Below are positions 47,319-63,492 of a stretch of 63,492 nt of DNA, in pieces. The notes beneath the pieces are model-generated. The model was not told where the DNA came from and ran no database searches. It saw only the letters and a list, made by a program, of their open reading frames with translations. Origin of the DNA: an uncultured bacterium (GTDB taxonomy: Bacteria; Bacillota_I; Bacilli_A; Acholeplasmatales; Anaeroplasmataceae); the NCBI GenBank assembly GCA_949292525.1, contig CASEZJ010000009.1, forward strand, positions 1 through 63,492, read 5' to 3'. The stretch's first letter is position 1, and each line of letters begins with the position of its first letter. Position numbers and translations under genes: made by a program.

Positions 47319-47592
47319 TTGACAATTTAATTTAAAATCTTTATTATTTAAACATAAACATGAAGATAAGAAACGTGGTTATTTATTTTTAGCCTAGAGA
47401 GCTCTTGTTAGGTGAAAAAGAGACTAAAAAAATAACAAATTCATCTTGGAATGATTAACTGAAATTAAGTAGGTTAAATCGGGAATGCCCGTTACAGCAA
47501 AATGTATTGTTAGATACATGAGGTCTATTTATAGATAAATAAAGGTGGTACCACGTTAAAACGTCCTTAGTCAAACTAAGGCGTTTTTTATT
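47319..47592 (+). promoter_or_regulatory. promoter and Phe-type T-box leader of aroF-pheA
   Basis: TTGACA (47319-47324), 17 bases, TATTAT (47342-47347). The leader's Stem I pairs AAGAT/ATCTT and GTTATTT/AAATAAC; the internal loop on the 3' side is AAATTC, giving specifier TTC (47440-47442) for Phe. The T-box core AAAGGTGGTACCACG (47541-47555) and terminator (47560-47592, stem with one bulge, T6 tail) follow. Uncharged tRNA-Phe should turn on the aromatic genes. Confidence 0.93.
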
Positions 47593-60765: not shown

Positions 60766-60778
60766 CCACCATTTTTTA
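60750..60778 (+). terminator. terminator of the zinc-ribbon gene
   Basis: TGGTGGT/ACCACCA (60750-60756 with 60765-60771) followed by a T6 tract. The stop codon lies between the arms. Confidence 0.8.
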
Positions 60779-61963
60779 TTTGACTTTGTCTTGATAAAGC
60801 CATTTTTTTCCAAAGACATCTATTAAAATACCTCCAATAGGTGCAGTTATAATTATTGCTAAAACAGCTATTGCTAAAACAATGCCTCCACAATCAAGTC
60901 CATTAGATAGTGCTATACCACCAATTGAAGCCTGAACAGTAGCTTTAGGTAAATAGGCGAATATGCAAAATATTTTTTCTTTAAATTTAAGTTTGCCGCC
61001 AATTACTGATAAATAAACGCCAATTGAGCGAAAAAATAAACCAATTAATACTACTAATATTCCTAATAATCCACTATCTATTACATATTTAAAATTTACT
61101 GCTGCCCCTACTAAAACAAATAAAATGATTTCAAAAAACTTCCAAATATTATTATAACCATCAGAAATTCCCTTAGCTTTTTGGGGTAATTTTAATAATA
61201 ATACCATTCCCATAACCATGATTGCTAGTAATGACGAAATAGAAAAGTATTGTTTAAGTAATTCTTCTAATCCAAATAACAAAAGGGAAAAGCTTAAAAA
61301 TATAAGAATATTAATTACTAACTTGAAGTTAGTCTTTTTATATATACATATTAATAAAATTCCCATAAGCAAACCAAGTAAAATACCTGAAAGAATAGTA
61401 ACTGGAATTAATGAGACTGATATAAAATTAAACTTCCCGCCTTCTACAATTCCTAAAAAGGCATAAAACAAAATTATAGTATATGTATCATCGGCAGATG
61501 CCCCAGCTAATATGATTTCTGGAATAGAATTTTTATTATAGCCTTCATCTATTAATTTAATCATCCTAGGTGATACCACTGCTGGTGATACAGCACCTAA
61601 AACACTGCCTAACAAAAAGCCTTCAAACCAACTTAAATTCAATAAAAAATGACTAGATATACCAACAGCTACTATTTCAAAAGTAGCTGGCAAGAAACAC
61701 ATTAAAATTGCTTTACGTCCAACTTTTTTTAATTTTTTTAAATTTAAATTTAATCCACTTCTTGTTAATACAATAACCAAGGCGATTTGCCTTAATTCGC
61801 TTGATATATTTAACAAATCTGGCGAAATGATATTCAATACTGTTGGGCCTAATAAAAAGCCTAAAATTATCATTCCTATAAAACCTGGTATATGTGTTTT
61901 TTCTAGAATAAAGCCTATAAAAAAACCTAAAATTAAAATTAAACCAATTGATATAAAAAACAT
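60776..61963 (-). CDS. cation:proton antiporter under fluoride control
   Basis: A 395-residue membrane protein with about 12 helices in the CPA (NhaP/KefB-like) fold: PGFIGMIILGFLLGPTVLNI near residue 29, LGAVSPAVVSPRMIKLI near residue 119 and ASADDTYTIILFYAF with the ion-binding Asp pair. It differs clearly from the antiporter at 11969. I choose ATG 61963 after GGAGG rather than an upstream TTG. A fluoride riboswitch controls it, so it probably helps fluoride tolerance, either by antiport or by ion balance; direct fluoride transport is not proven. Confidence 0.88.
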   Translation of the reverse strand: MFFISIGLILILGFFIGFILEKTHIPGFIGMIILGFLLGPTVLNIISPDLLNISSELRQIALVIVLTRSGLNLNLKKLKKVGRKAILMCFLPATFEIVAVGISSHFLLNLSWFEGFLLGSVLGAVSPAVVSPRMIKLIDEGYNKNSIPEIILAGASADDTYTIILFYAFLGIVEGGKFNFISVSLIPVTILSGILLGLLMGILLICIYKKTNFKLVINILIFLSFSLLLFGLEELLKQYFSISSLLAIMVMGMVLLLKLPQKAKGISDGYNNIWKFFEIILFVLVGAAVNFKYVIDSGLLGILVVLIGLFFRSIGVYLSVIGGKLKFKEKIFCIFAYLPKATVQASIGGIALSNGLDCGGIVLAIAVLAIIITAPIGGILIDVFGKKWLYQDKVK

Positions 61964-61982
61964 ATTTTTATAACCTCCTAAC

Positions 61983-62075
61983 AAAAAAAGCTAATAACTC
62001 CACAACAAAAAAAGTTGTAGAAGTCATTAGCATTAACAGCGGTTTTGATATATCAAGGGAGACCTCATTCCCGTC
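61983..62075 (-). promoter_or_regulatory. fluoride (crcB) riboswitch with terminator
   Basis: On the minus strand the leader runs GGGAATGAGGTCTCCC, then AACCGC, then GCTAATGACTTCTACAAC. These are the conserved blocks of the crcB class: GAGGTC pairs with GACTTC and the UAC end closes it. The 3' aptamer strand also forms one arm of a 17-bp terminator (62014-62030 with about 61990-62006) ending in U7. Fluoride should stabilise the aptamer and let transcription continue. Confidence 0.87.
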
Positions 62076-62078
62076 TAA

Positions 62079-62106
62079 ATTATACTACTTATTTATTTTA
62101 GTGCAA
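62079..62106 (-). promoter_or_regulatory. promoter of the fluoride-controlled antiporter
   Basis: On the minus strand TTGCAC (62106-62101) and TATAAT (62084-62079) are 16 bases apart, immediately before the riboswitch. Confidence 0.82.
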
Positions 62107-62783: not shown

Positions 62784-63014
62784 CTATCTCTTTTCTAATT
62801 GATATTCAGTGATTATTGTTTTTTCATTTTGTTCAATTGTAAAACTAATAATATTATCCAATGGTGTGCAATGAATAAAAGTTAAATCAAATATGTTACT
62901 TTCAGCTTTAATTTGAAATTCTTTCCAATATGTCTCTTCTACAAAGAAATCATAACATTTAATTGGAATTAATTGACTAGTATTTCCATCTACACCTCTT
63001 AAATCAAAGGACAA
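62784..63014 (-). CDS. unknown small protein
   Basis: A frame of 76 codons with a TTG start and GGGAGTG about 12 bases upstream. The sequence (FDLRGVDGNTSQLIPIKCYD, and later FTIEQNEKTIITEYQLEKR) is soluble-looking and not recognised. The frame stays open a few codons further upstream. An alternative is ATG 63034 in another frame, which would join this frame if the T7 tract near 63015-63021 had one more T, so a frameshift is possible. It lies behind a structured leader. Confidence 0.5.
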   Translation of the reverse strand: MSFDLRGVDGNTSQLIPIKCYDFFVEETYWKEFQIKAESNIFDLTFIHCTPLDNIISFTIEQNEKTIITEYQLEKR

Positions 63015-63100
63015 AAAAATGTCTTCACTCCCATTTGGTTATTCTTATTTTACTATTTACAACAATCATTTGTTCTTTCATAATTAATTCTTTCAACAAG

Positions 63101-63263
63101 AAAAAACTATGAGTTAACCTCCTTTCGCAGGATTAACAAGTGCTCTGATTGATTATAGAGCGACCTATTGCTGATACCTCAAAGGGTAGTTCTCTTAACA
63201 GCTTTGATAGAAAACTTTATCAATCTACTCTTTAACAAGAGAATTAAGATTTGGTTCCTTACG
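63101..63263 (-). ncRNA. structured leader RNA, class not recognised
   Basis: An extended -10 TGATATAAT (63278-63270, minus) starts the transcript. Then come stems AAGAGAA/TTCTCTT (63237-63243 with 63190-63196) enclosing TTGATA/TATCAA, then TACC/GGTA, then GCTCT/AGAGC (63142-63146 with 63157-63161), and a terminator GTTAATC/GGTTAAC (63113-63119 with 63130-63137) with a U6 tract. This promoter-aptamer-terminator shape is that of a riboswitch or attenuator. I could not match it to a known class. Confidence 0.45.
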
Positions 63264-63308
63264 TTTCAAATTATATCAAAAATTAATGAAAATTCAATTT
63301 ATAGAAGC

Positions 63309-63338
63309 AAAAGACTAAGGATTTTACTCCTCAGCCTT
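63309..63338 (-). terminator. terminator of the gene running off the right edge
   Basis: An 11-bp stem with two G-U pairs (63311-63321 with 63328-63338) followed by a short U run on the minus strand. Confidence 0.65.
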
Positions 63339-63399
63339 AATTATTATATGTATTAGGTTTTTAAGATTAATTATTAAATAGTTTAATAATGTAAGATGA

Positions 63400-63492
63400 T
63401 TAATCATTAGTTTTCAATTGCCACTTGTCATGCTTATTTGCTCTAGAGCCAACAATTATGCCTTTTTTCTTCAATGCTGAAAATATTCTTCT
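63400..63492 (-). CDS. partial gene, C-terminal end only
   Basis: The minus strand at the right edge reads a 30-codon open frame ending in TAA: FSALKKKGIIVGSRANKHDK and a short tail. The gene continues beyond the window. Too little is visible to name it; a winged-helix or similar DNA-binding end is conceivable. Confidence 0.55.
   Translation of the reverse strand, partial: RRIFSALKKKGIIVGSRANKHDKWQLKTND

Follow-up and report, generated by a model that had tools for sequence, protein, structure and literature searches.

What kind of RNA lies near the end of this contig, and which gene does it serve? The window, the whole stretch of 63,492 nucleotides that was analysed, carries a minus-strand region that the earlier note described as an unrecognised, riboswitch-like leader. 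In that description, an extended -10 promoter, several stems and a terminator formed an attenuation-type unit with two short genes. The promoter was present, with the extended -10 sequence TGATATAAT at 63278-63270 and a -35-like TTGAAT at 63297 (minus strand). The multi-stem RNA was also borne out at 63257-63133 of the same strand, by a match to an Rfam family (E 2.4e-12) and by covariation in relatives. The features of this part were as follows.

63311..63338, minus strand: terminator-like hairpin of the upstream gene, lying upstream of the promoter
63270..63297, minus strand: promoter TTGAAT-16-TATAAT with a TG extension, read from the sequence; 18 of 27 aligned copies have the exact TATAAT
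63133..63257, minus strand: structured RNA, divergent relative of Rfam RF03112 (Staphylococcus-1), 66.1 bits, E 2.4e-12

The match to RF03112 covered model positions 1-127 of 127, indicating homology over the entire model. A search of the window's whole genome with RF03112 returned the leader at E 7.2e-13. Our own model R1, whose training includes the window copy, returned it at E 4.5e-20, and R1 found one strong copy of the RNA in this genome. The score of the window copy is 21.6 bits short of the curated gathering cut-off of 87.7, so the leader is missed by a standard Rfam scan. Five of the 26 aligned relatives were also under this cut-off (L052 74.4, L029 81.5, L064 65.4, L072 43.8 and L030 42.4). 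Rows above it numbered 17 in one scan and 11 in another, in which L026 repeats L022 and L104 repeats L032. On its sequence, we file the window RNA as a divergent relative of RF03112; by Rfam's rule it is no member. The earlier note had recognised no class. This held for the riboswitch classes it listed, as no Rfam riboswitch class reached its gathering score within the leader, and failed for Rfam as a whole, where a known family was matched below its cut-off. The free-energy fold of the single leader sequence was unremarkable (z -0.82) and, folded on its own, neither strand stood out, so the case for the RNA rests on homology and covariation. The Staphylococcus-1 motif reportedly comes from a 2017 study of 224 candidate RNAs. 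A search of the open-access literature found nothing on 'Staphylococcus-1 RNA' or RF03112, nor, among the papers listed, on a link with an HNH nuclease. Elsewhere in the window lie a T-box leader (RF00230, 107.2 bits, 47354-47571, plus strand) and a fluoride riboswitch (RF01734, 42.9 bits, 62011-62081, minus strand). The latter is directly 5' of a Na+/H+ exchanger-family gene (60776-61984), plausibly a fluoride exporter.

The structure was then read from an alignment of 27 copies, the window and 26 relatives. Copies L041, L054 and L059 (near-identical to L038) and the partial copies L033, L051 and L058 were omitted. Some rows of the MAFFT alignment have this strand of the pseudoknot one base out of register, and offsets were set by hand for the window, L052, L029 and L072, so that these four rows were placed with the pseudoknot helix in mind. 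The elements of the window copy are listed below.

63228..63241, minus strand: P2 hairpin, both-side changes at 3 of 4 counted pairs
63219..63225, minus strand: 5' strand of P3, partner 63147-63153, both-side changes at 7 of 7 pairs
63210..63216, minus strand: pseudoknot 5' strand AGTTTTC, partner 63188-63194, 189 of 189 cells paired in 27 copies
63199..63202, minus strand: 5' strand of P4, GCTG, partner 63170-63173, from the covariation count
63188..63194, minus strand: pseudoknot 3' strand GAGAACT, pairing with 63210-63216
63176..63186, minus strand: near-invariant core CCCTTTGAGGT, from the alignment of copies
63155..63168, minus strand: P5 hairpin, 100% of counted cells paired

For P2-P5 and five pseudoknot pairs, with the outer stem P1 left out of the count, 94.9% of cells were paired across the window and its relatives. 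Double changes occurred at 17 of the 24 counted pairs, a result matched by none of 500 shuffles; the stems are thus conserved among homologues. The H-type pseudoknot has 7 bp, formed by seven bases 5' of the P4 strand and seven inside the P4 loop. All 189 of its cells pair in the 27 copies, in six distinct versions and with both-side changes at four pairs. This pairing was reached by 4 of 2000 shuffles, and shifting the strand lowered the count to 65-136 cells. In Rfam's consensus the first pseudoknot strand is unpaired and the pseudoknot is missing, whereas the aligned copies have it. The core CCCTTTGAGGT of the window copy is the same as in most relatives. In the fold read from the alignment, helices P2-P5 and the H-type pseudoknot surround a core, CCCUUUGAGGU, that hardly varies. 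An AT-rich copy in Mycoplasmopsis cynos (L064, 4846-5006), with a shortened P5 hairpin, stands in front of WP_129720803.1.

Rfam types RF03112 as 'Gene; sRNA', and its output names no gene partner. We looked at what lies downstream in relatives. Scanning genome contigs with a pattern yielded 32 loci, of which 24 held real RNA copies; in the other eight (L035, L036, L037, L048, L055, L056, L057 and L061) the pattern was not part of such an RNA. L033, truncated at the edge of its locus, was dropped, which left 23 loci with readable downstream sequence, among which the fetched slices of L041, L042, L049 and L054 hold only the start of the HNH gene. In 20 of these 23 loci, the RNA lies directly 5' of the start of an HNH nuclease gene. 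Among the three exceptions, a deletion in L058 fuses the RNA to the middle of the HNH gene, and L045 and L046 have lost the gene, their genomes giving no HNH homologue at E<=1e-15. A scan of viral contigs added one further RNA copy, again with the HNH gene.

The link was also seen from the protein side. Protein-driven searches gave matches at E<=1e-40 in 13 distinct genomes. The RNA was upstream of the HNH gene in all 10 genomes that keep the D-H motif of the nuclease and in none of the 3 with an altered motif (L069, L070 and L071, all of one genus). Some caveats apply: the RNA-driven set already contained some of the ten genomes, several of them had served to train R1, and L104 and L032 are one and the same locus. 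The divergent L072 keeps the D-H motif and has the RNA upstream, at 43.8 bits with the Rfam model. Matches restricted to the HNH region (about 80-130 residues, E<=1e-15) gave no RNA match at E<=1 in the fetched loci. These results indicate, at the level of sequence, that the RNA is the 5' leader of one HNH nuclease gene on mobile DNA in many other gut bacteria. The downstream frame in relatives is thus the HNH gene and neither of the two ORFs that the earlier note had taken as the leader's partners; the conserved partner is missing in the window. A free sRNA that merely happens to lie upstream of the HNH gene would agree with the Rfam typing and with the persistence of the core without the gene in three genomes (the window, L045 and L046). 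However, no terminator follows the RNA in the window, and the RNA leads straight into a Shine-Dalgarno sequence and start codon, which makes this reading highly improbable.

The -10 box gives a predicted start of transcription. Of 27 aligned copies, 18 have an exact TATAAT 3-7 nt 5' of the point where the RNA row begins. In the remaining nine, the best box has one mismatch (seven copies) or two (two copies), and some are shifted. The box suggests that transcripts of intact copies start at or near the RNA 5' end. At the 3' side of the window RNA we found the following.

63118..63125, minus strand: Shine-Dalgarno-like AAAGGAGG, from the sequence
63079..63111, minus strand: predicted hairpin CAUAG...UUAUG pairing the former start codon, AUG unpaired probability 0.02

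The relatives have the same order: the RNA, a Shine-Dalgarno-like AGGAGG and a predicted hairpin that usually takes in the AUG. The mean unpaired probability of the AUG was 0.22 in 20 copies versus 0.52 in 35 control starts from the same loci (p 6e-5), and it was below 0.5 in 17 of the 20 copies and 19 of the 35 controls. The form of the hairpin varies among copies, and three of the 20 starts (L032, L039 and L040) are predicted to be mostly open. In L069 and L070, which have no RNA, AGGAGG and a CATAG...CTATG hairpin are still present near the start. No terminator was found between the leader and the ORFs, the sole terminator-like site being 63338-63311, upstream of the promoter. Where the earlier note had placed a terminator, a start-codon hairpin follows the leader, and with no attenuator terminator found the attenuation-type unit was not upheld. 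A translation start hidden by a hairpin is known from the phage T4 homing endonuclease I-TevI, which is translationally repressed. The likeness is that of a selfish nuclease whose start is hidden, here by a predicted hairpin; the present case differs in the large, conserved, pseudoknotted RNA domain 5' of the hairpin.

We next compared the window copy with intact relatives, which gave the features below.

63400..63492, minus strand: 3' part of the upstream gene, truncated where the contig ends; the 353-aa protein whose C-terminus it encodes is intact in G002 and L021
63025..63081, minus strand: remnant of the start of the HNH gene, 18 codons ahead of a stop (MKEQMIVVNSKIRITKWE); codons 1-7 are homologous to L052
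63027..63060, minus strand: 34-nt junction matching neither source, by sequence comparison
62784..63014, minus strand: 76-aa ORF, the C-terminal part of a 164-aa lipoprotein-like gene, intact in L004
62625..62780, minus strand: 51-aa ORF, by sequence comparison the N-terminus, with the signal peptide, of a secreted protein at least 548 aa long

Positions 63321-63061, containing the leader and the first seven HNH codons, were 88.9% identical to 412-668 of L052, an intact relative. On the two sides of this segment, 63026-62635 was 94.4% identical to L004 (contig C14 of the same-genus genome G002) and 63492-63311 was 96.7% identical to L021. Pfam gave no family for either small ORF, and no HNH homologue was found in the window's genome at E<=1e-15. 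The two ORFs claimed earlier do exist; as small genes of the unit they do not stand, since by sequence comparison they are truncated pieces of larger, unrelated genes fused to the leader. The comparison likewise indicates that, in the window assembly, the HNH gene was removed by a deletion or rearrangement that formed this fusion, leaving the leader an orphan. The fusion could be a mis-join in the metagenome-assembled genome, although the orphan copies in two other genomes, those of L045 and L046, show that gene loss recurs. The contig end falls in a repeat: 63331-63492 shares 96.9% identity with the beginning of C38, another contig of this genome, and 96.7% with G002 C7; in C38 a further piece of the secreted-protein gene comes after the repeat.

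The partner protein is an HNH_4 nuclease of about 310-330 aa. The D-H motif and flanking residues are invariant in 21 aligned members, all of which match Pfam HNH_4 at E<=0.01; Cas9 models match the HNH region weakly as well. No RuvC domain was found, Pfam at E<=0.01 giving HNH-type families only. In two structure models built from the same 15 sequences, the C-terminal half resembled 4cll, a class III nucleotidyl cyclase (Z 12.3, rmsd 3.9 and 147 aligned residues for model 1; Z 11.5, rmsd 3.5 and 148 for model 2). We take this predicted likeness as a hint of fold, not of function. Foldseek with the HNH protein model gave no match at E<=0.001, and the HNH profile had no significant match among PDB sequences (best E 0.52). 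Residues 1-80 were poorly predicted in both models (pLDDT 34-43), so no claim is made on the fold of the N-terminus.

The RNA might instead be a working partner of the nuclease, binding it as an inhibitor, scaffold or targeting RNA. The obligate neighbourhood and the absence of the RNA where the D-H motif is altered agree with this, as do an HNH_4-type nuclease weakly matched by Cas9 models and a pseudoknotted RNA with an almost invariant core. On the other side, an exact -10 box so close upstream (3-7 nt, in 18 of 27 copies) would leave little space for a 5' guide, the 3' side consists of AGGAGG and a start-codon hairpin, no RuvC domain was found, and the 27-copy alignment shows no variable spacer. 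The omega RNA of IscB, formerly named HEARO RNA, is similar in arrangement, a structured RNA just 5' of an HNH-domain gene on mobile DNA. Here, however, the protein is only about 310-330 aa without a detected RuvC domain, no 5' guide was seen, and the RNA does not match the HEARO Rfam family. Type III toxin-antitoxin systems (ToxIN-like) have a tandem-repeat antitoxin RNA upstream of an RNase toxin; this candidate was rejected, with no tandem RNA copies in the 27 aligned loci and an HNH gene downstream. PMC11061315 offers a precedent in which a neighbouring nuclease accounted for an Rfam RNA that had not been characterised: reRNA, derived from RAGATH-18, accompanies IS607 TnpB. As described there, an Rfam RNA of obscure role was likewise tied to one nuclease family; TnpB differs in being a RuvC protein, whereas the partner here is HNH. 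Taken together, we regard a partner RNA as a possibility of limited weight. That Staphylococcus-1 RNA is the RNA half of a ribonucleoprotein nuclease, binding the HNH/cyclase-fold protein of the same transcript and controlling or directing its cutting in mobile-element competition or as an anti-phage device, appears rather unlikely.

Distribution and neighbours were also examined. Among 160 genomes of the order RF03112 was found in 4, and among 395 of the class in 5, the window's own counted; the cassette was found in 2 of 391 genomes of one class, one being the centre genome. L040 and L043 share sequence only from -160 to +1192 around the RNA core and have different flanks; a left edge at -256 is common to L038, L041 and L105. 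Large serine recombinases made up 3 of 119 neighbours at 24 loci, and tRNAs, in some cases distant from the RNA, were present in 9 of the 31 loci that were scanned. A sparse cassette with differing flanks would fit cargo of integrative elements. The leader DNA was not found in phages or plasmids. With tblastn, the HNH protein was not found in phages; in plasmids it matched over almost its full length once, in a Mycoplasmopsis cynos record of 987 kb, and gave one weak Roseovarius match. A protein scan of viral contigs returned the contig of L031 alone. The 119 neighbours included defence-like matches (methyltransferases, DdmD, dGTPase and ThsA-like), and most families were housekeeping. As a rough control, 56 window genes had PADLOC matches too, so no defence enrichment is claimed, and a defence-island reading was rejected on these two grounds.

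A metabolite or ion riboswitch would be another way to govern the nuclease. A compact H-type pseudoknot whose loop bases hardly vary would suit such a switch, as would a translational expression platform. Yet one gene type alone lies downstream, in unrelated contexts on sparse mobile cargo, and among the loci read no biosynthesis or transport gene is under the control of the RNA. Nothing was found pointing to a metabolite ligand, and the riboswitch reading is improbable.

We favour a translational-control leader, with an RNA-protein complex as its strongest rival. On balance, the window copy is probably the leftover leader of a mobile cassette of RNA and HNH nuclease whose gene has been lost here, with the RNA most likely controlling nuclease translation. 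In an intact copy, the promoter would start the transcript at or near the RNA 5' end. The RNA would fold into P2-P5 and the H-type pseudoknot around its almost invariant core, followed by AGGAGG and a predicted hairpin hiding the AUG of the nuclease gene. The leader would thereby most likely limit translation of a nuclease that might harm its own cell, up to the point at which a signal or partner changes the fold. In the window, the nuclease would have been deleted or rearranged away and the leader joined to fragments of lipoprotein-like and secreted-protein genes. Against translational control, the RNA core is far more elaborate than such simple control requires.

These results link one nuclease family with an RNA that Rfam lists simply as an sRNA, and correct the structure of RF03112 by a pseudoknot supported by covariation. 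The range of the RNA now takes in Mycoplasmopsis as well as uncultured Clostridia and Bacilli, and the RNA and the HNH gene together define a testable cassette of about 1.3 kb. The window copy illustrates how such a cassette decays, and that a chance downstream ORF is a poor guide to the function of a leader.
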